Of a stretch of DNA of 64,000 nt, positions 17,276-45,979 are shown one piece after another (the first letter of the stretch is position 1; each line of letters starts with the position of its first letter). This stretch comes from Caldisericum exile AZM16c01 (GTDB lineage Bacteria; Caldisericota; Caldisericia; Caldisericales; Caldisericaceae), in NCBI RefSeq assembly GCF_000284335.1, contig NC_017096.1, positions 124,001-188,000 on the forward strand, in the 5' to 3' direction. Position numbers and translations under genes: made by a program. Under the pieces are notes generated by a model that made no database searches, had not been told where the DNA came from, and saw only the letters and a list, made by a program, of their open reading frames with translations.

Positions 17276-17340
17276 ATAGGCACACCCATTTCAATTTCTT
17301 TTTGTTGTTTTTCAATACTATAATGTTTCTGAGGTGGGAA

Positions 17341-20300
17341 ATGAAGAAAATACCAGTATTAATAATTTTATTGTCTCTTCTTATTCCCAATATCGCATTT
17401 GGGAAAACTCTTTACTGGAGATCACTTTTTTCAAAAGCCGGGTTTGTGTCTTCTCCAAATTACTTTAATCCTGTTAAAGGTATCGAGATTGATCCTAATA
17501 ACTCTAATGTTGTGTATCTTGCAACATGGGGGAACGGGGTTTTAAAAAGCATAGATGGAGGTAAACACTTTGACCCAATAAATAACGGGCTAACTGAACT
17601 TAATACATATGTTGTGAAAGTTGATGGAAATAATCCTAAAATTGTGTATGCGGGGACTGCAACAGGCGTATTTGTCTCATATGATGGAGGAGCAAGTTTT
17701 AACCTTCTTCAAGATTTAAGATTAAGCGTTACAAGCGTTGAATTTGGAGTAGGCATTCTATATGCAGGTATCCTAAACGATGGAATAAACGCAGGACTTT
17801 ATAAGTTCAAAGATAATAAGTGGATTGAAGTAGGACTTTCTGACAAAGACGTTCTTTCAATTGCAAGATTAAATACTTCTACTCTTCTTTTAGGTACTTC
17901 CGATGGGCTTTACTCTTTTGATGAAAAAAGTTCAACTTTCAAATTTCTTGGATTTCAAAATCTTACAGTGAATAGTATCGCAGTCTCAAAGAAAAAAATC
18001 GTTATAGGGACATCTGACGGTGTCTTTGCAAGCGATATTGATCCTATTTATTTTGTGTCATTAAATAATATTAACGTGCTTCTTTCAAGTGGGAATTTTC
18101 TCTCCGTAGCCATATATAAGGATAATCCTTACAAGGTTATTGTGGGTAATGATAAAGGCTCTCTTTTCAGGTTTGATCTGAATATGGGAAGTTTTGAGAG
18201 GTTGCAGGTGCGTGCAAATTGCATTTATTCTTTGTATGTAAAAAGTGATGACACTATATTTGTTGGAACTGAAAATGCATTTCTTTGGTCAGACAATAAC
18301 GGGCAGTCTTTTAAGGGATTTGCTCTTACGATAACAGGAGGAGAAATGCAAATTGACCCACAAAATTTAAACATTATATACGTAGGCTCTGATAATGGCC
18401 TTTACAAAAGCGTTGATGGTGGTGTTAACTTTATAAATCTTGGGTTTGTTGGTAATAGAGTTTTTTCTGTTGCGATAAATCCCAACGATGACAGGGAACT
18501 GTTTGTTGGAACGTATCTTGGATTATACCATTCGATCGATTACGGTGAAAGTTTTGTAGAATTAAAGCAATTTTCAGGATATTCTGTGACGTTTGTTGCA
18601 ATTGTGCCTCAGACTCAAATAATTTTTGCAGGTTCAGAAATAGGAGTGTTTGTTTCACAAGACCACGGCATAACATGGACAAAGAGTTTGTCGATTAAAG
18701 AAGGCGATTTTATTCTTTATATAGCAATAGATCCCACCAACTCAAATATCGTTTATGTTGCGTCTTTTATAGACGGGCTTTATAAGACGTATGATGGAGG
18801 TAAAACTTGGCAATACCTCGGGCATGATGACTTTGTTATATCCTCAATTTCAATTTATAAAGGCAATCCTAATGTTATCTATATTTCAACTTTAGGAAGT
18901 ATTTACAAAAGTAGTGACGGAGGAAAAACACTCACGAAGATTTTTAATATTTCGGGAGGCTCAAGCGGTTGGTATGTCTTTAAAGATGTTTTAGTAAGTT
19001 CTTATAATCCAAATCTTGTTTTTGCTGTAGGTGACTTTATTGTATACGGAACGAATAGAGTAACTGGGTTACCTGAAATAGCCTATGATGAGCCTATATT
19101 ATTTAGGACAATTGATTCGGGAGAACACTGGGAAAAACTTGATCTTCCAAATACTATCGAGTCTAACAATGCAATCTATTATGATGAAAAAACTAATACC
19201 GCACTCCTTTTAACAGGCATTGGCATACTTCATTACGATTTTACACATATGAAATACTACTTCTATTCAGAGGGATTTTCTGAAGAGTACATAAGGGTTG
19301 TAAGAACTTTTGATGATGCTCTTTTTGTTGGAACAAATTCTGGAAATATAGGTAAGAGTTTTGACGGTGGTAAAACCTTCGAATTCCATGCGAAATTTGA
19401 TGTTCCGGTGCTTTCGCTTTTCCAAAGCAAAACGAATCCTAATTTTATTTACGCGGGGACCTCAATGGGTTTGCTTGTCTCAACCGATTTTGGTTCTTCA
19501 TGGAAAAGATATTTTTCGGGAATGGTCTATGCTATTACAGGATTTAACTTAAATGGAAAAGACATCATATTTTTAGGAACGGATTCAGGTATTTTTGAGA
19601 TTAATGGTTATTTGGATACAGGTAAACTCATTTACGATGGTGTAAGTACTGCCCTTTACTATTATGATGGCAAACTGTATGCAGGTACTGATAGAGGGCT
19701 ACTTGTCTCAAATGATTTTGAAAACTTTGAGTTACTCAAAGATATAGGAAGTACAATTAATACAATTGCAATTTTTGATGGTTCTCTTTTTGTGGGTACA
19801 AATGATGGGCTGTATGTTATTGACAGAGATAGTGTAAATTCAATCCTTAAAGATAGTGTAATCTTTGACATGGTATATCAAAATGGTACTATCTACCTTG
19901 CAACCGATAGTGGTGTGCTTATATTGAATAAAGACTTATCTTATACCTCAATAAATAACGGGCTTACAAGTTATTATGCAACTTCTATTACCGTAAGTAA
20001 AAATGGTGATATATTCTTAGGAACAGATGGAGGTGGCTTATTTAAACTTGAAAGTAGATCGACTGTGAAAGTGTCGGCTTCATTGGGTGGAAAAGTTGAA
20101 CCCTCAGGTGAATTTGAAATGTCTCCAACCGAAGAAAAAGAATTTATCATAACACCTAATTCGGGATTTCGCCTTAAAGACGTGTTAATAAATGGGAATT
20201 CATATTTAACAAACGCAAAAGACCTTGGAAACGGCACATATACCCTCAAATTGTCGGGTATCTATGACGATTCGACTCTTCAGGTAAATTTCGAACCGAT

Positions 20301-20916
20301 TACTTTTGTAATTAAAACCTATGCGCATTTAGGTGGATCGATTACACCGGGAGAGACTCTTTCAGTTAGTTTTGGTTCCTCTCAAACATTCACAATTACC
20401 CCAGACAGTGGCTACAAAATTAAAGATGTCTTAGTTGATGGTAAATCTGTCGGTGCAGTTTCAACATATACCTTTAATAACATTACTTCTGACCATACAA
20501 TTGAAGCCTTTTTCGAAAAGAAAACAACTACTATTGCACTCCAAATTGGTTCCTCTTCTTTTACTGTAGATGGTGATATAAGAACTCTTGACTCCCCTCC
20601 TGTGATTAAAAATGGTAGAACACTCCTACCAATTCGAGCAATAATTGAAGCACTTGGAGGAACTGTCAGTTGGGATGCAACAACAAGGAAAGTAACCATT
20701 TCACTTGGCAATAACACAATTGAACTTTGGATTGGAAGAAGCATTGCAAAGGTAAATGGCACAGATACTCCCATTGACTCCACTAATCCAAAGGTTGTCC
20801 CTGAAATAATCAACGGTAGGACAATGATACCCTTGAGATTTGTTGCTGAATCTCTTGGAGCAGATGTGCAGTGGGATGGAACAACAAAAACTATTACGAT
20901 AACATATGGAGGCTGA
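17341..20916 (+). CDS. large secreted Asp-box propeller protein with C-terminal stalk domains
   Basis: 1191 residues from ATG 17341 (GAGGTGGGA ribosome site; -10 TATAAT at 17319-17324). Signal peptide about 1-21. At least ten Asp-box motifs of the form S-x-D-x-G-x-x-F/W (for example SIDGGKHF, SQDHGITW, TYDGGKTW, SFDGGKTF, STDFGSSW) indicate beta-propeller(s) as in sialidases or VPS10 proteins. Two divergent InlB-B-type repeats follow (about 915-1060; LGGKVEPSG, LGGSITPGE). The end is a tandem copper-amine-oxidase-N pair (about 1070-1191; GRTLLPIRAIIEALGG, GRTMIPLRFVAESLGA), the stalk domain often found on secreted proteins. No catalytic residues are recognised; likely surface adhesion or binding. 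Confidence 0.85.
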   Translation: MKKIPVLIILLSLLIPNIAFGKTLYWRSLFSKAGFVSSPNYFNPVKGIEIDPNNSNVVYLATWGNGVLKSIDGGKHFDPINNGLTELNTYVVKVDGNNPKIVYAGTATGVFVSYDGGASFNLLQDLRLSVTSVEFGVGILYAGILNDGINAGLYKFKDNKWIEVGLSDKDVLSIARLNTSTLLLGTSDGLYSFDEKSSTFKFLGFQNLTVNSIAVSKKKIVIGTSDGVFASDIDPIYFVSLNNINVLLSSGNFLSVAIYKDNPYKVIVGNDKGSLFRFDLNMGSFERLQVRANCIYSLYVKSDDTIFVGTENAFLWSDNNGQSFKGFALTITGGEMQIDPQNLNIIYVGSDNGLYKSVDGGVNFINLGFVGNRVFSVAINPNDDRELFVGTYLGLYHSIDYGESFVELKQFSGYSVTFVAIVPQTQIIFAGSEIGVFVSQDHGITWTKSLSIKEGDFILYIAIDPTNSNIVYVASFIDGLYKTYDGGKTWQYLGHDDFVISSISIYKGNPNVIYISTLGSIYKSSDGGKTLTKIFNISGGSSGWYVFKDVLVSSYNPNLVFAVGDFIVYGTNRVTGLPEIAYDEPILFRTIDSGEHWEKLDLPNTIESNNAIYYDEKTNTALLLTGIGILHYDFTHMKYYFYSEGFSEEYIRVVRTFDDALFVGTNSGNIGKSFDGGKTFEFHAKFDVPVLSLFQSKTNPNFIYAGTSMGLLVSTDFGSSWKRYFSGMVYAITGFNLNGKDIIFLGTDSGIFEINGYLDTGKLIYDGVSTALYYYDGKLYAGTDRGLLVSNDFENFELLKDIGSTINTIAIFDGSLFVGTNDGLYVIDRDSVNSILKDSVIFDMVYQNGTIYLATDSGVLILNKDLSYTSINNGLTSYYATSITVSKNGDIFLGTDGGGLFKLESRSTVKVSASLGGKVEPSGEFEMSPTEEKEFIITPNSGFRLKDVLINGNSYLTNAKDLGNGTYTLKLSGIYDDSTLQVNFEPITFVIKTYAHLGGSITPGETLSVSFGSSQTFTITPDSGYKIKDVLVDGKSVGAVSTYTFNNITSDHTIEAFFEKKTTTIALQIGSSSFTVDGDIRTLDSPPVIKNGRTLLPIRAIIEALGGTVSWDATTRKVTISLGNNTIELWIGRSIAKVNGTDTPIDSTNPKVVPEIINGRTMIPLRFVAESLGADVQWDGTTKTITITYGG

Positions 20917-22704: not shown

Positions 22705-22739
22705 ATTAATTCCAGGCTTACAAGAATTTTGTCCAAGTT

Positions 22740-22767
22740 TTGCAAAAAGAGACTCGCGTGGTATAAT
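22740..22767 (+). promoter_or_regulatory. promoter for leaderless mRNA of the redox/stalk cluster
   Basis: TTGCAA (22740-22745), 16-bp spacer, TATAAT (22762-22767), then six bases to ATG 22774. No ribosome site is present. The same -35 sequence and spacer length occur at the acoX/acoR and copper promoters. Confidence 0.75.
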
Positions 22768-22773
22768 TATTTC

Positions 22774-24372
22774 ATGATGAGTGTGAAAAAAATATCATTT
22801 GTAATTTTGATAGCGCTTATTCTTAATCTATTTACTATTGGTAATATTAATGCTCAAAATTTAAACATTAAACTCATTAGATCCTTTGATTCTCAAATCA
22901 ACACTATATACATAGCTTCAGCAACTATCCTCATTGGCACAGATGAAGGGCTTTACTACACCTCTGATAATTTTAAGACATTGCGAAAAAAGAACGAAGG
23001 CTTGACCGAGTTAAGTATCTCTGCTATAGATTACTATAATGGAAAATATTATATTGGTACAGATGGGGGAGGGCTTTATTTGGGAAGCCTTGAAGACGCA
23101 CAATGGATAAGTCTCAGGAACCTTGTCGATTGCCCAACAATTTCTTCTATTAAACATGAAGGTGATAGAATTTATGTTGCGTCCTATTGTAGTGGTTTTT
23201 TTGCTAGTTTTAATAAAGGCTCCACTTTTTTAAACTTAAACAAGGGACTTTCATCAGTAAAAGCGAGTGCATTTTTAATCGCAAGTAGCGGTTATTATCT
23301 TGGAACTGATGAGGGGTTTTATTATGCTAAAACGATAAGCGAGGGTATGGTCTGGAATAAGGTTTTGAATAATGTTTCGGTTAATTCTGTATCAGAGTTT
23401 AATGGTGTTGTTCTTGTGGGAACCTCTTCAGGTATCTATTCAGGAAGTGAAAATAAGTTTGAAAAGATTAATATCGTCTCCGGATCTCCTAATATAAAGT
23501 TTGTTGAAGCCCATTATAATAGGGTTATTGTTGGGATTGATTCCTTAGGTTTGTTTTTGTCTTGTGATGCAGTCAATTATTTTCTGAATAGTTCTGAGCT
23601 ATTCTTTGATGTTAGAACGGTTGCGTTTGATAGCGATAAAAAATTAATTTACGTTGGCACGAAATCTGGCAAATTGTACTCCGTTGATTTAAGTACGCCG
23701 ATTCTTCTTTTTAATAAAACAATTAACTTAGGAACCGTGAGAAAGGGATCAGTCTTCACTTTTTCATTTGATGTCTTTGATTTTAGCTTTAATACACAGG
23801 AATTGAGTCTTTCAGGTCCTAATTTTATTCAATTTACAAAAACTTCTTCTGGGAATAAAATAAACTTTTGTGCTAAACTTGATTCATCAAAATTGGCGGC
23901 GGAGAAGTACTCTGTGCCACTCGTTTTGAAAAAAGGTTCTGTCGAAGAAAAGGTGTTTGTGAATTTTGAAGTAGTAGAAAATACAGAGATAGTTGTAAGG
24001 CTTTACATAGGCTCAACTACTGCTTATATAAATGACAAAGAATACAAACTTGATGCGCCACCTTTTATAGACAAGATATCTAATAGGACTCTTGTCCCTG
24101 TGAGATTCATATCTGAAGCGCTTGGTTTTGATGTATTGTGGGATGGCATAAAAAAGGAAGTCACAATTAAAAATAGAGAAAATACAACCGAAATAAAACT
24201 TTACATTAACAAAACAACTGCAACTGTAAATGGAAAAAGTATTGCTTTGGATGTTGCACCTGTAATTCTCCCCCCAGGGAGGACTTTTGTTCCTATAAGA
24301 TTTATTTCTGAAACTTTCAAAGGTACTGTTTATTGGGATTCAAAAACTAAAGAAGTAAAGATTGTTTTTTGA
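22774..24372 (+). CDS. secreted propeller-like protein with tandem stalk domains
   Basis: 532 residues from ATG 22774. Signal peptide about 1-25. Residues 30-320 contain repeated segments such as ILIGTDEGLYYTSDN, YYIGTDGGGLYLG and VLVGTSSGIYSG, related to the propeller of the larger protein at 17341. A short Ig-like stretch follows. Residues about 420-532 are a copper-amine-oxidase-N pair (NRTLVPVRFISEALGF, GRTFVPIRFISETFKG). First gene of a four-gene cluster with thiol-redox proteins. Probably surface-exposed; function unknown. Confidence 0.8.
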   Translation: MMSVKKISFVILIALILNLFTIGNINAQNLNIKLIRSFDSQINTIYIASATILIGTDEGLYYTSDNFKTLRKKNEGLTELSISAIDYYNGKYYIGTDGGGLYLGSLEDAQWISLRNLVDCPTISSIKHEGDRIYVASYCSGFFASFNKGSTFLNLNKGLSSVKASAFLIASSGYYLGTDEGFYYAKTISEGMVWNKVLNNVSVNSVSEFNGVVLVGTSSGIYSGSENKFEKINIVSGSPNIKFVEAHYNRVIVGIDSLGLFLSCDAVNYFLNSSELFFDVRTVAFDSDKKLIYVGTKSGKLYSVDLSTPILLFNKTINLGTVRKGSVFTFSFDVFDFSFNTQELSLSGPNFIQFTKTSSGNKINFCAKLDSSKLAAEKYSVPLVLKKGSVEEKVFVNFEVVENTEIVVRLYIGSTTAYINDKEYKLDAPPFIDKISNRTLVPVRFISEALGFDVLWDGIKKEVTIKNRENTTEIKLYINKTTATVNGKSIALDVAPVILPPGRTFVPIRFISETFKGTVYWDSKTKEVKIVF

Positions 24373-25489: not shown

Positions 25490-27514
25490 ATGAAAAAACT
25501 TTTTGCTTTTTTAACAATGCTTGTAATGCTTTTTTCAGTCTTGACATTTGTTAGAGGAGTAACAAATTCTATTGGGAATTTGACAATTTCTGTGAGTCCC
25601 TCCGATCGAGGTGCTTACGGTGAATATAAAATTACATTTGTAACGCACTCTGACCTTAAGCAGGGATACGATAGAGTATATCTACAGTTTCCTCAAGAAT
25701 CTACAATACCTTGTACATCTTGTGCTTATGCGCATTGTTCGGATTGCTTTCTAATAAATGGAACAAGGGTAGCAGGCGCAGGTCCTGTTTACGATTTGCC
25801 AAAGACAGTTTATTTCACAGTACCGTCCCCTGGAATAAAGGCAAATGACACAGTAGAGCTTCTAATTAAACAATCGGCAAGTTTCCAAAATCCGACAACG
25901 CCAGGAGATTACATATTGAAAGTTTGGACTGATCAAGAACCTGAAAAGGTGCAGGCAACATTCACAATAACTTCAACAACAATCCAGAATTTAGGTGCTT
26001 CAGCTGATCCGGAATTTACCAACGCAAATATAATGTTATCGCTTGACTTTACCACAGGAAGACTTGGCGATGTGATGAATGGCAAGAATGTGTATGTAAG
26101 ATTTCAAGACGGATTTATTTTGCCTCAAAAGCCTGATGCAAACTACGTTACGATAAATGGAGAAAACCCTAAATCGGTTTCTATTAATAGTAACACCTTT
26201 ACTTTAACGCTTGCTTCATCAATTGGGAAAAATGCAAATGTAAAGGTAAAATTCTATCCATCGTTTGGAATTATCTCCCCAAAAAAACAGGGCAGCTACA
26301 CAATAGAAGTTTTTACAGATTCAGAACCGATGCCTGTTTCAATAAAAGTGGATTTCAAAGATAAAGATTTCGTGCGAACGCTTTTAGAAACAACGCCAAA
26401 CGAGCCTAACGGCAAAAACGGATATTTCATATCAAATGTCATTGTTAAATTGATTGCCGAAACTAATACGTCTGAGACACCTACTACATACTATAAGTTA
26501 GATGATGGAGACTACAAGGTTTTTACAGATCCAATTGTTATTAATGATGGTACCCATACAGTGAAGTATTACAGCAAGACTAATACTCTTACAGAGGAAG
26601 AAAAATCGCTTACGTTCAAGGTTGATACGGTAGCACCTCATATAGCATTAAACTTGAAAGACCTAACTTATACTTACGAAAATACAATATTAATAAAAGG
26701 TGGACTTTCGGAGAGTGGGGATATATATATCAACGGAAATCAACTGCAAGTGCTTTCTGACTTTTCATTTGAAGGCGTTTACACCCTAAAAGAAGGACAA
26801 AACTTTTTCCATCTTATCGCTATTGATGTTGCAGGCAACAGAACCGAAAAACTTTTAACGGTAATCTTAGATACCACAACACCCGTTCTTACGATAGAAT
26901 CTCCAAAATCAAACTTCGAGAAATTCTCAAACTTTATTCTTGTAAAAGGGAATGTATATCCATCAAATTGTTTTGTTCTTGTAAATGACAAGATGGTTGA
27001 GGTAAATGGAAATGGTGACTTTGAATATAAACTTATTCCGAACTCAAAGAATAATATGCAACCTGTGAACCTGAAAGCCATTTATCCTCTAACGGGTAAA
27101 TCAGTAGAGCAAAAGTTTGTAGTGATGTATGTATTTGATAATACCGTAAAACTTCAGGTGGGTAGTAAAAATATTTCCGTCTTTGGAGAGACGAAAACCA
27201 TGGATGTAGAACCGTTTATTGACAAAACAAGTGGAAGAACCCTTGTTCCTGTGAGATTTGTTTCGGAAGCATTAGGCTTTGAAGTTTCATATGATTCAAA
27301 AACAAGAACAGTCTTATTACAAAAGGAGAATGTGAGAATCGAACTTGTTATTGGAAGTAGGTTTGCAATCGTAAATGGAGTAAAGAAGAGCCTTGATGTT
27401 GCACCACTTATAAAAGATGCAAGGACATTTGTTCCGCTAAGATTTATTTCAGAAACAATGGGGTATAAAGTTGACTGGAACGCCGAAACCAAGACCATAG
27501 TTATTACCCCATAG
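25490..27514 (+). CDS. secreted four-cysteine protein with Ig-like and stalk domains
   Basis: 674 residues. Signal peptide about 1-23. Two related N-terminal beta domains (about 27-165 and 165-290), the first carrying Cys75, Cys78, Cys83 and Cys86 (C-x2-C-x4-C-x2-C). Then an OmpL47-like domain (about 300-380: YYKLDDGDYKVF, DGTHTVKYYS), Ig-like modules (380-550) and a copper-amine-oxidase-N pair (about 555-674). It is flanked by two thiol-redox genes with 9- and 15-bp gaps, so the cysteines may be their client, as a disulfide or metal site. Function unknown. Confidence 0.8.
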   Translation: MKKLFAFLTMLVMLFSVLTFVRGVTNSIGNLTISVSPSDRGAYGEYKITFVTHSDLKQGYDRVYLQFPQESTIPCTSCAYAHCSDCFLINGTRVAGAGPVYDLPKTVYFTVPSPGIKANDTVELLIKQSASFQNPTTPGDYILKVWTDQEPEKVQATFTITSTTIQNLGASADPEFTNANIMLSLDFTTGRLGDVMNGKNVYVRFQDGFILPQKPDANYVTINGENPKSVSINSNTFTLTLASSIGKNANVKVKFYPSFGIISPKKQGSYTIEVFTDSEPMPVSIKVDFKDKDFVRTLLETTPNEPNGKNGYFISNVIVKLIAETNTSETPTTYYKLDDGDYKVFTDPIVINDGTHTVKYYSKTNTLTEEEKSLTFKVDTVAPHIALNLKDLTYTYENTILIKGGLSESGDIYINGNQLQVLSDFSFEGVYTLKEGQNFFHLIAIDVAGNRTEKLLTVILDTTTPVLTIESPKSNFEKFSNFILVKGNVYPSNCFVLVNDKMVEVNGNGDFEYKLIPNSKNNMQPVNLKAIYPLTGKSVEQKFVVMYVFDNTVKLQVGSKNISVFGETKTMDVEPFIDKTSGRTLVPVRFVSEALGFEVSYDSKTRTVLLQKENVRIELVIGSRFAIVNGVKKSLDVAPLIKDARTFVPLRFISETMGYKVDWNAETKTIVITP

Positions 27515-36305: not shown

Positions 36306-36331
36306 AAAATATATGTTTGAAAGGAGGTAAA

Positions 36332-37312
36332 ATGGAATTATCAAAGGAACTGTTACTGAAATTTTACAAAGACATGGTTCGCATCAGGAATTTTGAACTA
36401 AAAGCTGAAGAGCTATTTCTTCAAGGGAAACTTCCAGGGTTTATACATCTGTACATTGGTGAAGAGGCGATTGCAGTTGGCGCAATGGCAAATTTGAGAG
36501 TTGAGGACTACATTACTTCTACTCATAGAGGGCATGGTCATATGCTTGCAAAAGGTGCCTCAATGAGAAAGATGATGGCTGAACTCTATGGCAAAAAACA
36601 CGGTTACTGTAAAGGTAAAGGTGGCTCAATGCACATTGCTGATGTTTCAATTGGTGTTCTTGGTGCAAATGGTGAGGTTGGCGGTGGTTTGCCTATTGCA
36701 GTTGGTGCAGGAATGGCAATTAAATTACAGAAGAAAGACAGTGTTGTTATTTCATTCTTTGGTGATGGGGCATCAAACAGAGGTGCCTTTCACGAGGCTC
36801 TTAACTGGGCGTCGGTCTTTAAACTTCCTGTGATTTTCCTTAATGAAAATAACCAGTTTGCTTCTACTGAAAGAGTGCAGGAAACTACATCTGTTGAGAA
36901 TATTTCCGATAGAGCAGTTGGCTATAACATGCCTGGTGTTTCAATCGATGGAAATGATGTAATTGCGGTATTCGAAACAGTAAAAGAGGCGGTTGAAAGA
37001 GCAAGAAATGGTGGTGGTCCGACGCTGATTGAGGCAAAGACCTACAGACTTAAAGGTCACTTTGTTGGCGATCCTCAACTTTACAGAACAAAGGAAGAAG
37101 TTGATTTAAAATGGCCCAACGAACCTATTTCAAGGTTTGAGAAAAAACTCTTCGAAGGTGGATATCTTACAGAGAAAGAAAAAGAAGAAATTTGGAATGA
37201 TGCAAAGAATGAAGTAGAAGATGCAGTCCTGTTTGCGGAACAAGACGAATATCCTGCACCTGAGGAAGCTCTTGAAGACCTTTTTGAAGACAGCACAAAT
37301 TGTCTATATTGA
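36332..37312 (+). CDS. acoA: acetoin/2-oxoacid dehydrogenase E1 alpha subunit
   Basis: 326 residues from ATG 36332 (AAAGGAGG). HRGHGH, the thiamine diphosphate motif starting GDG (144-146) and ending NENN (171-174), and the phosphorylation-loop-like YRLKGHFVGDP are present. With E1 beta it decarboxylates the substrate using thiamine diphosphate. AcoX and AcoR neighbours favour acetoin, but pyruvate or branched 2-oxoacids cannot be excluded from sequence. Confidence 0.9.
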   Translation: MELSKELLLKFYKDMVRIRNFELKAEELFLQGKLPGFIHLYIGEEAIAVGAMANLRVEDYITSTHRGHGHMLAKGASMRKMMAELYGKKHGYCKGKGGSMHIADVSIGVLGANGEVGGGLPIAVGAGMAIKLQKKDSVVISFFGDGASNRGAFHEALNWASVFKLPVIFLNENNQFASTERVQETTSVENISDRAVGYNMPGVSIDGNDVIAVFETVKEAVERARNGGGPTLIEAKTYRLKGHFVGDPQLYRTKEEVDLKWPNEPISRFEKKLFEGGYLTEKEKEEIWNDAKNEVEDAVLFAEQDEYPAPEEALEDLFEDSTNCLY

Positions 37313-37324
37313 TGGGAGGTTGAT

Positions 37325-38293
37325 ATGAGAGAAATTACCTTTTCTGAGGCATTAGGCGAAGCAATTTTGGAAGAAATGTCCAGGGATCCAACAATCTTTA
37401 CATATGGAGAGGATATTGCAAAACAAGGTGGGATTTTTGGAGCATACAAACCAATTCTTGGCAAATATCAAGATAGAATTATAGATACTCCAATTTCTGA
37501 GGAGGTTATTTTTGGTTCAGCACTTGGTGCGGCATTAGCAGGAATGAGGCCAGTTGCTGAGTTTCATTTTGCAGACTTCCTTTTTACTGGGATGGCTGCT
37601 ATTGCAAACCAGATAATGAAGTTTAAGTATATGACAGGAGGGCAGGGGAAACTTCACCTGATCTTAAGAGGACCTGATGGTATTTCAAAATCTGCTGCCG
37701 CACAGCATTCGGAATCAATTGAAACTATTTTTATGCATATCCCGGGCATTAAGGTGATTATTCCATCTACACCATACGATATGAAAGGGTTATTTAAAAC
37801 AGCACTTCGTTCTGACGACCCTGTCATTTGCTTTGAACACAAAATGCTTTACAGAATGAAAGGACCTGTCCCGGAAGAGGAATACTATATTCCGTTTGGA
37901 GTTGCTGACGTAAAACGTGAGGGTAAAGATGTCACAGTAATTGCAACATCAAGGATGGTTCATGAATCTCTTTTAGCAGCACAGGAACTTGAAAAAGAAG
38001 GTGTAAGTGTTGAGGTTGTTGACTTGCGAACGCTTGTGCCGTGGGACAAAGAAACTGTCTTTAAATCTGTGAAAAAAACCCACAAGGTTGTCATTGCTCA
38101 TGAAACTTGGAGAAGAGCAGGATGGGGTGCAGAAATTGCTGCAACAATCCAAGAAGAACTATTCGATTATCTTGATGCTCCAATTAGAAGAGTCGGTGCA
38201 AAGAATGTTCATATACCTTTTTCACCACCGTTACAGGATTTTGTTGTTCCTGACAAGAACAGTGTAATTGAGGCGGTAAGGAGCGTGTTATAA
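37325..38293 (+). CDS. acoB: acetoin/2-oxoacid dehydrogenase E1 beta subunit
   Basis: 322 residues. GEDIAKQGGIFGAYKP, DTPISEEVIFGSALGAA, the central HSESIE (typical QHSQ-like segment) and VDLRTLVPWD are E1 beta signatures. GGGAGG-type ribosome site 12 bp after acoA. It completes the alpha2beta2 E1. The TAA stop shares a base with the next ATG. Confidence 0.92.
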   Translation: MREITFSEALGEAILEEMSRDPTIFTYGEDIAKQGGIFGAYKPILGKYQDRIIDTPISEEVIFGSALGAALAGMRPVAEFHFADFLFTGMAAIANQIMKFKYMTGGQGKLHLILRGPDGISKSAAAQHSESIETIFMHIPGIKVIIPSTPYDMKGLFKTALRSDDPVICFEHKMLYRMKGPVPEEEYYIPFGVADVKREGKDVTVIATSRMVHESLLAAQELEKEGVSVEVVDLRTLVPWDKETVFKSVKKTHKVVIAHETWRRAGWGAEIAATIQEELFDYLDAPIRRVGAKNVHIPFSPPLQDFVVPDKNSVIEAVRSVL

Positions 38294-39453
38294 TGTTCGA
38301 AATAAGAATGCCCAAATTTGGGCTTTCAATGGAAGAGGGCACCATTACAAAATGGTACAAGAAGGTTGGGGATTTTGTTAAAAAAGGCGAACCTCTTGTT
38401 GAAGTTGAATCCGAAAAGATAATTAACACGCTTGAATCACCTTTTGAAGGTATCCTTAAAGTAATTAAGGTAAATGAAGGAGAAACCGCAAAAGTTGGAG
38501 AAATTATTGGTCTAATTGGAAGTGAAGATGAAACGATAAAAGAAATTACTGAAGAGAAAAGAGTAATTACTTCTGAGGAGAGTAAAGTAAGGAAACTTAC
38601 CGAATCGAAAATAGGAGAAGAGAAATCGGAAGAGGTTATTCTTGCTTCACCTGCCGCTAAAAGACTTGCAAAAGAGTATGGTGTAGATCTTTCGAATATT
38701 AAAGGCACAGGACCATCGGGTCGCATTGTTGAGAACGATGTAATTGCTTTTGTTGAGAAAATGAAACAAACTAAGCCAGTCTCTAAAAAAATTCCTCTTG
38801 ACCCTGTAAGAAAAAGAATCATGGATAACCTTGTTAAGTCCTACAAAGAGTCGGTTCTTGTAACAAACATAACTAAAATAGATTTAACGAATTTAATTTC
38901 TTTTAAAAAGGAGTTTCCTGATATTACACTTACTGCGTTTTTCGTTAAGATAGTTTCTAATGTTTTAAAGGATTTTCCAAAATTTAATGCACATTTTGAT
39001 GGAAATGAACTTGAAATTTTTGATGCAATTAACATTGGTGTTGCATTTGACACGGCTAACGGTCTTATTGTCCCAGTTATAAGGAATGTTCAGGAAAAAT
39101 CTCTTAAAGAAATTGCGCAAGAACTTCAAACACTAAAAGCAAAAGTAGAAGAAAACTCTTTGAACGTAGATGATTTAACTGGTTCAACGTTTACAATTAC
39201 AAATCTTGGTATGATGAGAACAGATATGTTTACACCAGTTTTAAATGGTAAAGAAGTTGCCATTCTTGGCATAGGGAGGACTTTAAAAGAGCCTACCGTT
39301 GCCGAGGATAAAGTTGTTGTAAGAGACTTTGCTTACTTTAGTTTGTCTTACGACCATCGTGTAATTGACGGTGCAGATGCTGCAAGATTTTTAGGAAAGC
39401 TTGCAGAATATTTTGAGTTAACAGACAATTTTCAAAAAATAAATAAAATTTAA
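38293..39453 (+). CDS. acoC: dihydrolipoamide acyltransferase (E2)
   Basis: 386 residues. One lipoyl domain (1-78) with Lys42 in ESEKI, a Glu-rich linker, an E3/E1-binding domain (about 115-155: SPAAKRLAKEYGVDLSNIKG) and a catalytic domain ending in DHRVIDGADAA with His355 and Asp359. The acyl group is passed to CoA. The lipoyl Lys is the likely target of the LplA encoded at 32349-33020. No E3 (dihydrolipoamide dehydrogenase) gene occurs in this operon, so E3 must come from elsewhere. Confidence 0.93.
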   Translation: MFEIRMPKFGLSMEEGTITKWYKKVGDFVKKGEPLVEVESEKIINTLESPFEGILKVIKVNEGETAKVGEIIGLIGSEDETIKEITEEKRVITSEESKVRKLTESKIGEEKSEEVILASPAAKRLAKEYGVDLSNIKGTGPSGRIVENDVIAFVEKMKQTKPVSKKIPLDPVRKRIMDNLVKSYKESVLVTNITKIDLTNLISFKKEFPDITLTAFFVKIVSNVLKDFPKFNAHFDGNELEIFDAINIGVAFDTANGLIVPVIRNVQEKSLKEIAQELQTLKAKVEENSLNVDDLTGSTFTITNLGMMRTDMFTPVLNGKEVAILGIGRTLKEPTVAEDKVVVRDFAYFSLSYDHRVIDGADAARFLGKLAEYFELTDNFQKINKI

Positions 39454-39470
39454 ACAAAAGGAGGTAAGGT

Positions 39471-40934
39471 ATGAAGAAAGTATTAGCAGTGTTGTTGATT
39501 GTAACAATGGTGTTGGGAGTTACAAAATTTACTCCTGCCATTGCTGCAAGCGAGGTAATGATTAAAATGACAATTGGTAATCCAAAGGCTTATGTTGATT
39601 CTAAAGTTGTAACACTTGATTCTCCTCCAATCATTGAAAAAGGCAGAACTCTTGTGCCATTTAGATTTATAGGTGAGTCAGTTGGTGCCCAAATCGGTTG
39701 GGATGGTGCTAAGAAGGAAGTAAGTTATGTCTTTGGCGACATCAATCTTAAACTTACGATTGGTTCGAACAAAGCGGTAGTTAATAATGTTATTAATATG
39801 CTTGATGTCCCCCCAAAGATTGTTGCAGGAAGAACTCTTGTTCCTGTGAGATTCGTGACCGAAACACTCGGTGCAAAAGTTGATTGGGATGCAAAAACAA
39901 AAACTGTTACGATTACTGCTTCCACTATACCCCCAAAGATTACATTTAAGCCAAAAGCAGAATACACAATGCAGGTTAACGTTGGCCCTGCGTTTGATTG
40001 GGGAAAAGGCGCTCAAAAATGGGCTGATCTTGTAAGAGAAAGAACAAATGGATTAATTAACATTAAGCCCTACTTTGGAAGTGCATTACTTCAAGGTAAA
40101 CAGACTAACTGGTTCCAAGCCGTGTCTGAAGGAAGTATTGATTTTGTAATGGATTCAACGATCAATGCTTCTGGTGTGGTACAATCGCTTAACCTATTCT
40201 CGCTTCCATTCTTCATTAACACATACGAGAATGTAGATAAAATTGAAAATGGCACTGCAGGTAAGATGATTATTGAACAAATGGAAAAAATGGGTGTAGT
40301 GCATCTTGCATGGGGCGAAAATGGTTTTAGAGAACTTACAAATAGCAAACGCCCTATAAGAACTCCTAATGATATGAAAGGCCTTAAATTTAGGGTTGTT
40401 GGCTCACCTATTTTTATTGATATCTTCAAAGCCTTAGGTGCCGATGCTGTTTCTATGAACTGGGGCGATGCGGTAACTGCATTCCAGCAAGGTGCTGTTG
40501 ATGGTCAAGAAAACCCCTACGGTGTATTGATCCCAGTTCAAATTTGGCAATACCACAAGTATCTCACAAACTGGAATTATGTAATTGATCCACTTATTCT
40601 CGGGGTAAGCAAACAAACTTGGGATAAGTTTCCAACTTATATACAGAAGGCTATTAAAGACAGTGCTCTTGAAGCAGCAGAATGGGAAAAAGCAATGGTA
40701 AGGCGTGGTCTTGATGGATTTACTTCTATAAACATTCTCAAGAATAAATTTGGCGAGACACCTCAATTGCTTGATATGGTCGGGTATGTAAGAAGCAAAG
40801 GAATGCAAATTATAGATTTGACACCAGAAGAACGACAAGCGTTTATTAATGCAACTCAATCTGTTTATGATAAGTGGATTTCAATTATAGGGAAAGATAT
40901 TTACAATGCCGCTTTAAAAGATATAGGTAAGTGA
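39471..40934 (+). CDS. dctP: TRAP transporter solute receptor fused to tandem stalk domains
   Basis: 487 residues. Signal peptide about 1-26. Residues 28-150 are two copper-amine-oxidase-N units (GRTLVPFRFIGESVGA, GRTLVPVRFVTETLGA). Residues about 158-487 are a complete DctP receptor: GKGAQKWADLVRERT, MKGLKFRVVGSP (substrate Arg) and GAVDGQENPYG. Normal DctP proteins have about 330 residues and no such domain. It starts 17 bp after acoC with GGAGG and no terminator between, so it belongs to the sigma-54 operon; its ligand may be the dehydrogenase substrate. Confidence 0.9.
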   Translation: MKKVLAVLLIVTMVLGVTKFTPAIAASEVMIKMTIGNPKAYVDSKVVTLDSPPIIEKGRTLVPFRFIGESVGAQIGWDGAKKEVSYVFGDINLKLTIGSNKAVVNNVINMLDVPPKIVAGRTLVPVRFVTETLGAKVDWDAKTKTVTITASTIPPKITFKPKAEYTMQVNVGPAFDWGKGAQKWADLVRERTNGLINIKPYFGSALLQGKQTNWFQAVSEGSIDFVMDSTINASGVVQSLNLFSLPFFINTYENVDKIENGTAGKMIIEQMEKMGVVHLAWGENGFRELTNSKRPIRTPNDMKGLKFRVVGSPIFIDIFKALGADAVSMNWGDAVTAFQQGAVDGQENPYGVLIPVQIWQYHKYLTNWNYVIDPLILGVSKQTWDKFPTYIQKAIKDSALEAAEWEKAMVRRGLDGFTSINILKNKFGETPQLLDMVGYVRSKGMQIIDLTPEERQAFINATQSVYDKWISIIGKDIYNAALKDIGK

Positions 40935-40940
40935 TAATAG

Positions 40941-40964
40941 GGGAGGGGCAACCCTCCCTTTGTT
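40941..40964 (+). terminator. attenuating hairpin between dctP and dctQ
   Basis: GGGAGGG (40941-40947) and CCCTCCC (40952-40958) form a 7-bp stem with a 4-nt loop, then TTTGTTT. It probably gives more receptor than membrane subunits. Confidence 0.8.
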
Positions 40965-40982
40965 TAAGTTGAAGGAGGCTCA

Positions 40983-41459
40983 ATGAAAAAGCTTAAATTG
41001 GAAGAAATTCTCGTGGTAGTTATATTAAGCGTGATGGCACTGCTTGGATTTGTTAATGTATTAAGTAGGTATATTTTCCATTTGTCTTTGGCTGCAACTG
41101 AAGAACTTGAAGTTAATATGTTTGTGTGGGTTACAATACTTGGTATTGCAATTGCTTTCGAAAGAGGTTCACATCTTGGAATGAATATCGTATTTGATAA
41201 ATTTCCCAAAAGTTTAAAAACGATTGCTATAATTTTGTCTTCGCTTCTTGCCATTTGGCTTTTTGTGATGGTAGATTATTATGCTATAAAAGATGTTATA
41301 AGAGATATTACTCTGTATCACTCAAGATCAGAAGCGTTAAATATACCTGTTTGGATGTATACTATATGGACTCCGATACTCTCGGTATTTGTTTTCAAAA
41401 GTATCATTGTTGCAACACTACATAATATTAAGCAAATACAATCTGGAGGCGCAAAATGA
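40983..41459 (+). CDS. dctQ: TRAP transporter small membrane subunit
   Basis: 158 residues with four hydrophobic helices. NVLSRYIFHLSLAATEELEV and RGSHLGMNI are typical DctQ motifs. GAAGGAGG ribosome site. It pairs with the large subunit that follows (ATGA overlap). It is needed for Na+-coupled uptake with the receptor protein. Confidence 0.92.
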   Translation: MKKLKLEEILVVVILSVMALLGFVNVLSRYIFHLSLAATEELEVNMFVWVTILGIAIAFERGSHLGMNIVFDKFPKSLKTIAIILSSLLAIWLFVMVDYYAIKDVIRDITLYHSRSEALNIPVWMYTIWTPILSVFVFKSIIVATLHNIKQIQSGGAK

Positions 41460-42748
41460 GTGCAGCGTTAATCCTCTTCGGAATTTTTATTCTTCTTATA
41501 GTTCTTGGTGCTCCAATTGGGACTGCTATAGGTGTTGCAGGAGTATTCGGTATCTTAAAGTATGACCTTGGAGTTACTATGATTGCCAAAAACTTCAGTG
41601 CAGGAATTGCGAAATTTCCGCTCATTGCGATTCCTTTCTTTGTGCTTGAGGGAGAGCTACTTTCAAAGGGTGGTCTTGCAAAAAAGATCTCTAATTTTAT
41701 TATAATTCTTGTCGGTAAAGCACGTGGTGGCTTGGCAATGGCTGCAGTTGTAACAGCAGCATTCTGGGGTGCAATCTCCGGATCAGGACCTGCAACAGCA
41801 GCGGCAATTGGACTTATATTTATCCCTGCAATGATTGAGCAAGGTTATCATGATACATTTGCTGCATCAGTTGTTGCCGCAGCAAGTGGTCTTGCAATAA
41901 TTATTCCGCCAAGTATTGCATTTATCGTGTATGGGAATATTACAGGTGTTTCGGTTGGTGCACTGTTTTTGGGAGGAATTCTTCCTGGTCTTGTTGTAAT
42001 GGGTTTCTTCTTAATTATCACCTATATTATTTCGCGAAATAGAAATTATCACGGTATTCAGGAACGTGGAAGTGGAAAAGAGATTTGGCATGCATTTAAA
42101 GAAGCAATCTGGGCAATTCTTGCACCTGTGATTATTCTTGGTTCAATTTATGCTGGTATTGCAACACCAACAGAATCTGCCATCATATCAGTTTTTTACA
42201 GTTTATTTGTAGGGCTGTTTGTTTATAAGAGCCTTGGCAAGAAAGAAATTATTGATTCATTAATTGGAACTGCTGTTACCTCTGCCGTTGTCATGTTTGT
42301 TGTGACATTTGCAGGTATTTTTTCAATAACGGAATCGACGCTTGGTATCATTGGTGCGGCAGGAAACTTTGTTGTTAGTGTTGCAAAAAGTCCAATTGCA
42401 TTTTTACTTTTGGTTGATTTGGTGCTATTTATTGCAGGTTTCTTTCTCGATGCAATTTCCATTTTATATGTCATTATGCCAATCTTTTTACCAGTTCTTC
42501 AGGCATTTAAAATTGATCCACTCTTCTTTGGTGTTATGGCAACTGTTGCTCTTGCAATTGGACAGATAACGCCTCCTGTTGCAGTAAACCTTTATGTAAC
42601 TTCAAATCTTATTAAGAAATCTCTTGACCAAACTTCTAAAGATATTTGGCCGTATGTTGCTTTTGCAGTGATAGGATTGCTTGTCATTACACTACTTCCA
42701 AAACTTTCACTTTTAATTCCTATTGCTTCAAAACTCTACACTCCATAG
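41456..42748 (+). CDS. dctM: TRAP transporter large membrane subunit
   Basis: 430 residues, about twelve membrane segments. GAPIGTAIGVAGVFGI, PLIAIPFFVLEGELLSKG, SGSGPATAAAIG and ITPPVAVNLYV are DctM hallmarks. It carries the translocation path and ion-binding sites. Last gene of the operon, followed by a strong terminator. Confidence 0.95.
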   Translation: MSAALILFGIFILLIVLGAPIGTAIGVAGVFGILKYDLGVTMIAKNFSAGIAKFPLIAIPFFVLEGELLSKGGLAKKISNFIIILVGKARGGLAMAAVVTAAFWGAISGSGPATAAAIGLIFIPAMIEQGYHDTFAASVVAAASGLAIIIPPSIAFIVYGNITGVSVGALFLGGILPGLVVMGFFLIITYIISRNRNYHGIQERGSGKEIWHAFKEAIWAILAPVIILGSIYAGIATPTESAIISVFYSLFVGLFVYKSLGKKEIIDSLIGTAVTSAVVMFVVTFAGIFSITESTLGIIGAAGNFVVSVAKSPIAFLLLVDLVLFIAGFFLDAISILYVIMPIFLPVLQAFKIDPLFFGVMATVALAIGQITPPVAVNLYVTSNLIKKSLDQTSKDIWPYVAFAVIGLLVITLLPKLSLLIPIASKLYTP

Positions 42749-42769
42749 ACTTATCATAATTGGAGTTTT

Positions 42770-42799
42770 GCCCCAAGGACTTTTCTTGGGGCGATTTTT
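42770..42799 (+). terminator. terminator of the aco-TRAP operon
   Basis: GCCCCAAG (42770-42777) and CTTGGGGC (42785-42792) form an 8-bp stem with a 7-nt loop, then GATTTTTATTTT. Confidence 0.92.
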
Positions 42800-42892
42800 A
42801 TTTTGAATTACATAAATCCTTCATTTTCTGAATTATTTGGAAATTTTGGTTAATTTGTATAAAATGGTAAAAATTTTATTAGGTGGTGGAGA

Positions 42893-43351
42893 GTGTATAG
42901 AAATTTAGGCATTGATAAGGTTAAGGAAATACTTCCACATAGAGAGCCGTTTCTCTTTGTGGACGAAATTTTAGAAGTTGAGCCTGGCGTGAGAGCAATT
43001 GGAAAAAGAACATTCACATCGAATGATTTTTTCTTTAAAGGACACTTTCCTAATTTTCCAATTGTTCCTGGTGTAATTTTAATCGAATTTTCAGCGCAAG
43101 TTTCTGCATCTATGATTCTTTTGCATGATGAATACAAAAACCTTTTTGGGTATCTATCAGGCGTTGAAAACTTTAAATTTGTTAAGAAAGTTCAAGAGGG
43201 CGATACAGTAATTGCAAAATGCGAAATGCTTGATTTCAGGCATAGCGTTGCAAAAAGCAAGGTAGAATTATTTGTAAATGACACACTTATTGCAATGGGT
43301 ATCATTAAAGCGTTTTTCGTAAATAAAAATTCATTAGGAGGTGAGTTTTGA
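42893..43351 (+). CDS. fabZ: 3-hydroxyacyl-ACP dehydratase
   Basis: 152 residues from GTG 42893 (GGTGGTGGAG upstream). LPHREPFLFVDEI and GHFPNFPIVPGVILIE carry the hot-dog active site His51 and Glu65. It dehydrates 3-hydroxyacyl-ACP in type II fatty-acid synthesis. First gene of the fab operon; a TATAAA box lies about 35 bp upstream. The end overlaps fabH by 4 bp. Confidence 0.93.
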   Translation: MYRNLGIDKVKEILPHREPFLFVDEILEVEPGVRAIGKRTFTSNDFFFKGHFPNFPIVPGVILIEFSAQVSASMILLHDEYKNLFGYLSGVENFKFVKKVQEGDTVIAKCEMLDFRHSVAKSKVELFVNDTLIAMGIIKAFFVNKNSLGGEF

Positions 43352-44328
43352 AAGTTGGAGTTCTTGGGCTTGGGAGTTATATCCCGGAGAAAGTAGTAAC
43401 AAACCATGATCTTGAAAAATTTCTTGATACATCAGATGAGTGGATAAGGACACGTACCGGTATTGTAGAAAGACGCATAGCAAATGAAAACGAAGCAACA
43501 TCTGACCTTGCTTCTATTGCTGCGAAAAGAGCACTTGAGGATGCAAATTTAAAGCCAGAAGATATTGATCTTATTATTGTCGGCACAAACTCTCCTGATA
43601 TGCTATATCCTGCAACTGCATGCCTTGTGCAGGAAAAAATTGGTGCTTCTGGTAAGTGTGCTGCATTCGACCTTCAGGCAGGTTGTCCTGGCTTTATTTA
43701 TGCTACTGTAGTTGGCTCTCAATTCGTAAAATCTGGTGCGTATAAGCATGTGCTTGTAATTGGTGCCGAAGTAATTACAAGAATGATGGATCCAACTGAT
43801 AGAGGGACCTACGTTCTTTTTGGCGATGGGGCAGGTGCAGTTGTCCTTGGCGAGGTTGAGGATAACCGTGGCATTGTTGATTTTGAATTGTATGCAGATG
43901 GCTCTATTGCGGAGCATCTTACGTTGCCTGCAGGTGGCTCAAGAAAACCATTCTCAGAAGAAGTCTTAAAAGAGCGAAGTTATTTTACAAAAATGAACGG
44001 AGGAGAGGTTTTTAAGTTTTCCGTAAGAGAAATTTCAAGAATCTCAAAGAAATTACTGGATAAAACAGGCACAAAATTGGAGGATATTGATTGGTTTATT
44101 CCGCATCAGGCAAATTTGAGGATAATTCAAGCAGGCGCAGAAAAACTCGGGATTCCTATGGAAAAAGTCGTTGTAACGATTGATAAGTTTGGAAACTCTT
44201 CTGCTGCATCTATTCCTGTATCTCTTGACACAATAAGAAAAGAAGGTAAACTTAAAAGAGGTGATTTGGTACTCATGGTGTCATTCGGAGCGGGGATGAC
44301 ATCAGGTGCAATTTTAATGAGGTGGTGA
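43348..44328 (+). CDS. fabH: 3-oxoacyl-ACP synthase III
   Basis: 326 residues. Catalytic triad: Cys113 (QAGCPGFIYA), His in IPHQANLRI and Asn in GNSSAAS. RTGIVERR near residue 40 is the usual CoA-contact region. It starts chains from acyl-CoA and malonyl-ACP. TTG start after GGAGGTGAG, overlapping fabZ. Confidence 0.95.
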   Translation: MKVGVLGLGSYIPEKVVTNHDLEKFLDTSDEWIRTRTGIVERRIANENEATSDLASIAAKRALEDANLKPEDIDLIIVGTNSPDMLYPATACLVQEKIGASGKCAAFDLQAGCPGFIYATVVGSQFVKSGAYKHVLVIGAEVITRMMDPTDRGTYVLFGDGAGAVVLGEVEDNRGIVDFELYADGSIAEHLTLPAGGSRKPFSEEVLKERSYFTKMNGGEVFKFSVREISRISKKLLDKTGTKLEDIDWFIPHQANLRIIQAGAEKLGIPMEKVVVTIDKFGNSSAASIPVSLDTIRKEGKLKRGDLVLMVSFGAGMTSGAILMRW

Positions 44329-44331
44329 GGT

Positions 44332-45231
44332 ATGATTGCATTTGTTTTTCCAGGACAGGGTTCGCAGTACGTGGGGATGAGTGCGAAAATCCCCGAAAGT
44401 TCAATTAAAAAGGAATTATTTAATAAGGCATCTGAAATATTGGGTTTTGACCTATTGGAAATCTGTGAAAAAGGGCCGCAGGAATTATTAACCTCAACAG
44501 ATATTACTCAACCAGCCCTTTACACTGTGTCTTCAATCTACGATGTTCTCCTTAAGGAAAAAGGCATAAAGCCGCAGATTGTTGCAGGGCACAGCCTTGG
44601 GGAGTATTCGGCACTATATTCTGCGGAAGCAATCTCTTTTGAAACAGGTCTTAAACTTGTTAGAACTCGTGGACTCCTTATGAAAAGTGCGTCTGATAAA
44701 GCACCTGGGAAGATGCTTGCGGTGATTGGTCTTGATAAAGATAAAATACAAAAACTTTTGGAAGAAGCATCAAAGTTTGGTGTGATTGTAAATGCAAACA
44801 ACAATGCATTTGACCAAGTTGTCCTTTCTGGGTCAGTTGAAGCAATTATGGAAGCGCAAAAAATTGCAAAAGACCTTGGAGCTCGTCTTTCAAAACCGCT
44901 TGAAGTTTCTGCTGCATTCCATTCGCCTTTAATGGAACCAGTTGTGCCTGAGATGTCAAAAGCAATCGACGAAGCCGAATTTAAAACTCCTTCTATCCCT
45001 ATAATTCAGAACGTTACAGCAGAACCTGAGACTGATATTAACCACATTAAAGAAAACCTCAAAAAGCAACTTACAGGCTCTGTAAACTGGGTTGGCTCAG
45101 TATTAAAAATGGATTCAATAGGAGTAAAAGAGTACTATGAAGTTGGGCCAAAAAATGTTTTAAAAGGCCTCATTGAACGCATTATTAAGGGCTCCACTGT
45201 TAAACTTTCAGAGGAGGCTTTTAATGCTTGA
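44332..45231 (+). CDS. fabD: malonyl-CoA:ACP transacylase
   Basis: 299 residues. FPGQGSQYVGM, GHSLGEYSAL with nucleophile Ser88, and the AAFHSPLM His region are present. Supplies malonyl-ACP to FabH and FabF. Lies 3 bp after fabH and overlaps fabG by 8 bp. Confidence 0.95.
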   Translation: MIAFVFPGQGSQYVGMSAKIPESSIKKELFNKASEILGFDLLEICEKGPQELLTSTDITQPALYTVSSIYDVLLKEKGIKPQIVAGHSLGEYSALYSAEAISFETGLKLVRTRGLLMKSASDKAPGKMLAVIGLDKDKIQKLLEEASKFGVIVNANNNAFDQVVLSGSVEAIMEAQKIAKDLGARLSKPLEVSAAFHSPLMEPVVPEMSKAIDEAEFKTPSIPIIQNVTAEPETDINHIKENLKKQLTGSVNWVGSVLKMDSIGVKEYYEVGPKNVLKGLIERIIKGSTVKLSEEAFNA

Positions 45232-45979
45232 GATAAACCTCAAAGATACTGTCTCAGTTGTAACAGGCGGGGGAAGAGGTATAGGGCGTGCAATATCAAT
45301 TGCACTTGCAAAGGCGGGAAGTAAAGTGTCGATCATTTATGCTTCAAGAGTTGAGGACGCTCTGAAAACGAAAAGCGAAGTCGAATCTTTTGGAGGGGTT
45401 GCCGAGGTTTTTCAGTGTCAAGTTGAGGTTGAATCATCGGTTGAAAATACAACAAAGCAAATCGTAGAAAAATTTGGGAAGATCGATATTCTTGTAAATA
45501 ATGCAGGCATTACAAGGGATACACTTCTTTTGAGGATGTCTTCTGAAGATTGGGACAAGGTTTTGAACACTAACCTTAAAGGTGCATTCTTAATGACAAA
45601 ACATGCGCTTAAATATATGATAAGAAATAATTCTGGACGAATCATAAATATTGGTTCAATCGTTGGAATTACTGGGAATGTTGGACAAGCAAACTATGTA
45701 TCTTCTAAAGCAGGACTCATTGGATTTACGAAGGCAGTTGCGCTTGAATATGGCTCAAGAGGGATTACTTCAAACCTTGTTGCACCAGGGTACATTGAAA
45801 CCGAGATGACTGAAAAATTGCCACAAAATGTCAAAGATACATATTTAAATAAAATTGTTTTAAAGAGGGCAGGTACCCCAGAGGATGTTGCAAATACAGT
45901 TCTCTTCCTTGCATCTCCTCTTGCAAGTTATATTACGGGAAGTATTATTGTTGTTGATGGTGGTTTGTCATTAACATAA
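45224..45979 (+). CDS. fabG: 3-oxoacyl-ACP reductase
   Basis: 251 residues from ATG 45224, set by GAGGAGG inside the fabD end. Short-chain dehydrogenase fold: GGGRGIG (NADPH binding), NNAGIT, catalytic Ser in IGSIVG and YVSSKAG (Tyr/Lys). Reduces 3-oxoacyl-ACP. Confidence 0.94.
   Translation: MLEINLKDTVSVVTGGGRGIGRAISIALAKAGSKVSIIYASRVEDALKTKSEVESFGGVAEVFQCQVEVESSVENTTKQIVEKFGKIDILVNNAGITRDTLLLRMSSEDWDKVLNTNLKGAFLMTKHALKYMIRNNSGRIINIGSIVGITGNVGQANYVSSKAGLIGFTKAVALEYGSRGITSNLVAPGYIETEMTEKLPQNVKDTYLNKIVLKRAGTPEDVANTVLFLASPLASYITGSIIVVDGGLSLT

Follow-up and report, generated by a model that had tools for sequence, protein, structure and literature searches.

The gene under study encodes a complete TRAP solute receptor, DctP, that carries an N-terminal pair of PF07833 domains, the 'stalk' domains of copper amine oxidase. 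It lies in a 64,000-nucleotide window (the whole stretch analysed, G000:C1:124001-188000) of the complete 1,558,103-bp genome of the thermophile Caldisericum exile. The stalk pair is likely to be a non-lipid retention module that does the job of a lipid anchor in a cell that appears to have no outer membrane enclosing a periplasm. We infer this function from sequence comparison across the phylum Caldisericota, in which stalk and lipobox occupy the same slot on binding proteins and exclude one another.

Architecture and predicted structure of the receptor

By sequence reading, the 487-residue protein starts with the ATG at 39471 and its stop codon ends at 40934; the features of the gene and of its neighbours are listed in Table 1. 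The signal peptide, MKKVLAVLLIVTMVLGVTKFTPAIAAS, is followed by two PF07833 stretches (E 2.3e-49, 166.3 bits against a cut-off of 24.2). The receptor domain matches PF03480 at residues 175-409 (E 1.7e-67, 228 bits against a curated cut-off of 23.4) and the protein scores 187.8 with TIGR00787, for which the curated cut-off is 175.05. Pfam finds no further domain in the protein: the copper amine oxidase catalytic domain and SLH domains (PF00395) are both absent. There is no lipobox cysteine after the signal peptide and not a single cysteine in the whole chain; thus, the protein cannot be a lipoprotein. Within the receptor, R308 is invariant in an alignment of 11 orthologs, and it may be the counterpart of R147 of SiaP, the conserved ligand-carboxylate arginine.

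The AlphaFold2 model of the full protein has two parts (pLDDT 87.8, pTM 0.87). Residues 28-151 form two repeats, each with five strands, a helix and two further strands, and the remainder adopts the DctP fold, for which the best solved match is 4p8b with a TM-score (target) of 0.92. The stalk pair modelled by itself reaches a pLDDT of 93.1, and its best Foldseek matches are all E. coli copper amine oxidase (1spu/1oac, probability 1.00), with an rmsd of 1.5 across 74 columns. The two stalk repeats are predicted to fold into a single compact unit. The open reading frame, ribosome-binding site, Pfam matches and structure model confirm the description in the earlier note of a TRAP receptor fused to copper-amine-oxidase-N stalk domains.

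Table 1. Positions in the window of the stalk-DctP gene, its neighbours and other stalk pairs
Feature	Position	Strand	Evidence
C-terminal stalk pair of 1204-aa secreted protein (17302-20916)	20533..20913	+	PF07833
C-terminal stalk pair of 547-aa secreted protein (22729-24372)	23992..24369	+	PF07833
C-terminal stalk pair of 674-aa secreted protein (25490-27514)	27119..27511	+	PF07833
2-oxoacid dehydrogenase E1 alpha	36317..37312	+	PF00676; synteny with receptor in Caldisericota, Atribacterota
2-oxoacid dehydrogenase E1 beta	37325..38293	+	PF02779/PF02780; synteny
2-oxoacid dehydrogenase E2	38293..39453	+	PF00198/PF00364/PF02817; synteny
Ribosome-binding site GGAGGT	39460..39465	+	Sequence reading
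Stalk-DctP fusion gene, 487 aa	39471..40934	+	ORF, Pfam, complete orthologs of same architecture
Type-I signal peptide, residues 1-26, ...PAIAA	39471..39548	+	Sequence; low model confidence at residues 1-25
Stalk repeat 1, residues 28-88, PF07833	39552..39734	+	Pfam; strand-helix order in model
Stalk repeat 2, residues 91-151, PF07833	39741..39923	+	Pfam; strand-helix order as in repeat 1
Short linker, residues 152-163	39924..39959	+	Alignment, model
DctP solute-binding domain, residues 164-487	39960..40931	+	PF03480, TIGR00787, 4p8b
DctQ small permease	40983..41459	+	PF04290
DctM large permease	41456..42748	+	PF06808, TIGR00786

Conservation of the fusion and of its gene cluster

A search for the combination of PF07833 and PF03480, which had been proposed as a check, recovered the same architecture in G009, G011, G012, G008 and G013. 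The stalk-DctP fusion is present in six species from three genera; five of these receptors are complete, and the G012 copy has lost its 5' end at a contig end. The copies from G008, G013 and G009 lie on contigs named Caldisericum (L031, L032 and L033), and the C. exile protein is 91% identical to the copy on L033, a contig named Caldisericum exile. The stalk repeats show 60-94% identity between species with dN/dS values of 0.02-0.21 in all cases where these were computable, and the signal peptide is under weaker constraint. By these measures the DctP stalk is under purifying selection. Because the fusion is conserved in six species and three genera, recurs in separate assemblies and has a stalk under purifying selection, we rule out an assembly artefact, which the earlier note had named as a ground for refutation.

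Caldisericota and several Atribacterota share the gene order E1 alpha, E1 beta, E2, DctP, DctQ, DctM, which makes a 2-oxo or related acid the probable substrate of the receptor. No paper with a substrate clue from the ligand of 4p8b was found in the literature search. Stalk and lipobox lineages have similar gene clusters and permeases, and the receptor N-terminus is the part that differs. In some Spirochaetota and Desulfobacteria an E1 gene also adjoins the TRAP genes. In the Caldisericum window (36317-45979) the TRAP genes are followed by FabZ/FabH/FabD/FabG-like genes, named from reading. The set of 2-oxoacid dehydrogenase, TRAP and Fab-like genes suggests uptake of 2-oxo or 2-hydroxy acids, perhaps feeding branched fatty acid synthesis. 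The family-1 lipobox lineage has an extra gene, DUF4388-like by reading, between DctP and DctQ (L022:1228-2130, L024:6308-7240).

Stalk, lipobox and SLH domains on binding proteins

The DctP orthologs of Caldisericota comprise six with a stalk pair and six with a lipobox. All six stalk-less receptors have the lipobox (LTGC, LSGC, FAGC, VAGC) followed by a short linker, and the five complete stalk-bearing receptors contain zero cysteines throughout. The stalk on DctP therefore stands in the slot taken by the lipobox in the other orthologs. Outside the phylum, the signal peptide is plain, with neither stalk nor lipobox, in 29 of the 30 nearest relatives (from Atribacterota, Spirochaetota, Desulfobacteria and one Lentisphaeria); the single lipobox is that of the Lentisphaeria receptor. 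The one genome-wide scan covered the nearest relatives of the DctP receptor. G022 and G045 hold four distantly related DctP proteins, likewise with neither device.

In the tree, the stalk-bearing receptors form one clade (96/96) that groups with Spirochaetota receptors (91/90); the family-1 lipobox clade lies elsewhere. This placement does not support a simple history in which lipid was replaced by stalk. Since the stalk clade stands beside Spirochaetota and outside the lipobox clade, a plain receptor may have acquired the stalk, with no lipid exchanged for it, and Caldisericota may have gained the DctP gene cluster more than once. Under either history, all close orthologs in the phylum have one of the two devices and nearly all outside relatives have neither.

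The comparison was extended to four binding-protein families of Caldisericota (PF03480, PF01547, PF01497 and PF00496), for which part of the search matches, with complete N-termini, was classified and lipoboxes were called by motif and eye. A stalk without lipobox is found at 65 N-termini (a slight undercount, as copies with an identical N-terminus within one genome were left out), a lipobox without stalk at 101 (three by a relaxed motif), SLH domains at 19 and no device at 18, and stalk and lipobox together at none. The Fisher p value of this exclusion, 3e-27, is overstated since the sequences are related. A sounder measure than this p value, which ignores relatedness, is that the exclusion held for each of the five kinds of binding protein to which the stalk is joined (DctP, SBP_bac_8, SBP_bac_11, Peripla_BP_2 and SBP_bac_5); this spread also implies several independent fusions.

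In the C. exile genome, all 13 binding proteins found in the four family searches carry a device: a stalk in five (DctP, two SBP_bac_8, one SBP_bac_11 and one Peripla_BP_2), a lipobox in six and SLH domains in two. SLH domains are known envelope anchors. They are N-terminal on two oligopeptide-type SBP_bac_5 receptors (L220 and L221, at C1:288797 and C1:1131716), and fill the same slot on binding proteins as the stalk; in G052 one SLH set is C-terminal. Among the families of Caldisericota, f6 has 54-85 PF07833 matches and 5-12 SLH matches and f7 has 9-16 and 47-66, respectively, as if the two devices trade places.

The exclusion bears on a different function for the stalk pair, oligomerisation or stabilisation as in the superoxide dismutase (SOD) of Paenibacillus lautus, with a receptor that is not attached by the stalk. 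The earlier interpretation did not consider dimerisation, which is the role of one solved PF07833-assigned domain. That domain (8IMD), which like each C. exile repeat has seven strands and one helix, forms a homodimer, and the full-length SOD melts 12.5 °C above the isolated enzyme domain; a single such domain dimerises via strands and a two-helix bundle (PMC10432803). However, a tandem pair could satisfy this interface inside one chain and leave its other surfaces free for the envelope. Stabilisation also predicts neither the exclusion of lipobox by stalk (0/65) nor SLH domains in the same slot, and stalk-less lipobox receptors occur in the same genome and family. We regard this explanation as rather unlikely and retention as the better account of the exclusion.

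The 18 device-less N-termini fall into several groups. Five are family-3 Peripla_BP_2 proteins with an N-terminal domain of about 150 residues to which Pfam gives no score; we suggest that it may be a decayed stalk pair. Two others appear to be membrane-anchored (G012:C77 and G047:C1), and one is a 953-aa G012 protein, truncated where its contig stops, which has N-terminal domains of another, propeller-like kind. Another eight come from short contigs of the metagenome-assembled genomes (MAGs) G019, G022 and G045, the GC content of which differs inconsistently from that of reference contigs, a weak hint of contamination, which is possible for these contigs. The short MAG contigs that hold device-less binding proteins or the sole Omp85 gene are G019:C77, G019:C70, G022:C131/C141/C121/C172 and G045:C86/C92/C99. 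The last two, SBP_bac_5 proteins of G023, are without explanation.

The stalk is not confined to receptors. The claim that the large secreted proteins of the window bear the same tandem pair stands as to the domain, but the pair is C-terminal there and N-terminal on the receptor. PF07833 cargo includes several binding-protein families together with propeller-like, cohesin-like and protease proteins, and a lipobox is absent from all 25 further stalk proteins that were inspected, three of which are receptor copies. Some pairs of large surface proteins have identical C-terminal stalk ends (L001 and L003; the L014 pair). A module found at either end of secreted proteins fits a retention tag better than a spacer. 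An uncleaved signal peptide could anchor the receptor in the membrane with the stalk as a rigid spacer, as the membrane-anchored appearance of two stalk-less exceptions might suggest, but small-residue, AxA-like sites end the signal peptides directly before the stalk, and the C-terminal pairs of many secreted proteins cannot space a head from an N-terminal anchor; we judge this arrangement very unlikely. The variety of cargo likewise argues against the stalk as a second ligand-binding domain that aids substrate capture, for which we found no supporting point and to which we give almost no credence.

Two sugar-receptor paralogs of C. exile about 108 kb apart (L011:4677-6344 and L012:1278-2960; C1:1217461 and C1:1325053) have 99-100% DNA identity over their first ~600 bp, which encode signal peptide and stalk; close to the 3' end the identity falls to 66-70%. 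A sister species (L096 in G011) has the same pattern with its own sequence, 100% identical over ~900 bp. The stalk half of the C. exile paralogs looks like a product of gene conversion. It could be argued from this identity that the stalk owes its spread mainly to gene conversion and does little for the receptor; however, purifying selection has kept the DctP stalk in three genera and receptors with a stalk lack a lipobox, which makes such a history extremely unlikely.

Cell envelope, proposed retention and comparison with known systems

No Omp85 gene was found in the C. exile genome, and among 54 Caldisericota genomes the single case is on a 3.2-kb contig of G019. In contrast, Omp85 is present in 27 of the 30 genomes that hold the nearest outside DctP relatives. 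PF07833 shows the opposite distribution, with up to 85 matches in Caldisericota (54 of 54 genomes) and one match each in five of those 30 outside genomes. Electron microscopy of C. exile has shown an outer-membrane-like layer, and a published search for BamA found none (PMC4104836), in agreement with our Omp85 result. Lgt is kept in C. exile, as are the six lipobox binding proteins, and we therefore rule out that a lost lipoprotein pathway made the stalk necessary.

We propose the following for the receptor. Once the protein has been exported and its signal peptide removed, the PF07833 pair would fold as one compact unit and hold the receptor non-covalently in the cell envelope, near the DctQ-DctM permease; in other Caldisericota receptors a lipid anchor has this role. 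Some tether would be needed because no Omp85-built outer membrane appears to enclose a periplasm, and the cell would lose an untethered receptor. The large secreted proteins, which have the module at their opposite end, would be retained by it as well. Candidate partners of the stalk are a wall polymer, an S-layer protein or another stalk. We found no report, in the papers searched, that the stalk binds a component of the envelope, and a search for the domain by name gave little that was useful beyond the SOD and Syntrophomonas wolfei papers.

In the comparative tests that could be made, the anchoring interpretation holds up, and it is partly supported. The earlier note had read the stalk as anchoring or presenting proteins at the cell surface, and this gains comparative support from the lipobox slot, the stalk/lipobox exclusion and the lack of Omp85; binding to the envelope itself would be the step that we infer. 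Its further idea, that the receptor is immobilised since no closed periplasm keeps it, accounts for why a tether is needed, but not for why a stalk is used over a lipid in a cell with Lgt and lipobox proteins.

It is conceivable, though somewhat doubtful, that bacteria with no Omp85 outer membrane generally use PF07833 pairs as a non-lipid means of retention. They would be one of three interchangeable devices for solute receptors (lipobox, SLH and stalk pair), recognising a conserved envelope component, and recombination and gene conversion would have carried the pair whole from one gene to another. PF07833 is common in the phylum and has no settled function beyond two solved examples; the lipobox exclusion and SLH domains in the same slot give what was a mere name, 'stalk', a function that can be tested. 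They also matter for two wider questions: the operation of TRAP transporters in cells that lack a closed periplasm, and the debated nature of the C. exile envelope.

The protein resembles DctP-family TRAP receptors in its full receptor domain and adjoining DctQ and DctM, and the closest solved receptor of the family, Ralstonia eutropha H16_A1328 (4p8b), is 46% identical to the C. exile receptor in the structural alignment. Unlike the usual DctP receptors, it has the PF07833 pair between signal peptide and receptor. The N-terminal 'stalk' domain of E. coli copper amine oxidase (1oac) is of the same sequence family and the same predicted fold; however, C. exile has a tandem pair, a receptor as cargo and no amine oxidase catalytic domain. 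The P. lautus Cu/Zn-SOD N-terminal domain (8IMD) shares the Pfam assignment, although the sequence match is weak (E 0.09), and it is a single repeat that dimerises between chains, whereas C. exile has two repeats in one chain. Lipoprotein substrate-binding proteins, among them some Caldisericota orthologs, are also solute receptors in cells without an Omp85 outer membrane, but stalk-DctP has neither a lipobox nor any cysteine. SLH proteins (PF00395) of the same genome likewise have an N-terminal envelope module on binding proteins, but one of a different domain family. Finally, the surface protein Swol_0133, which is more abundant in the membrane fraction of Syntrophomonas wolfei than any other protein, has a C-terminal domain of the amine-oxidase N-terminal family and is proposed to form the S-layer (PMC3582634). 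Unlike the C. exile fusion it is an S-layer candidate and not a receptor; it points towards retention as the function of the stalk.
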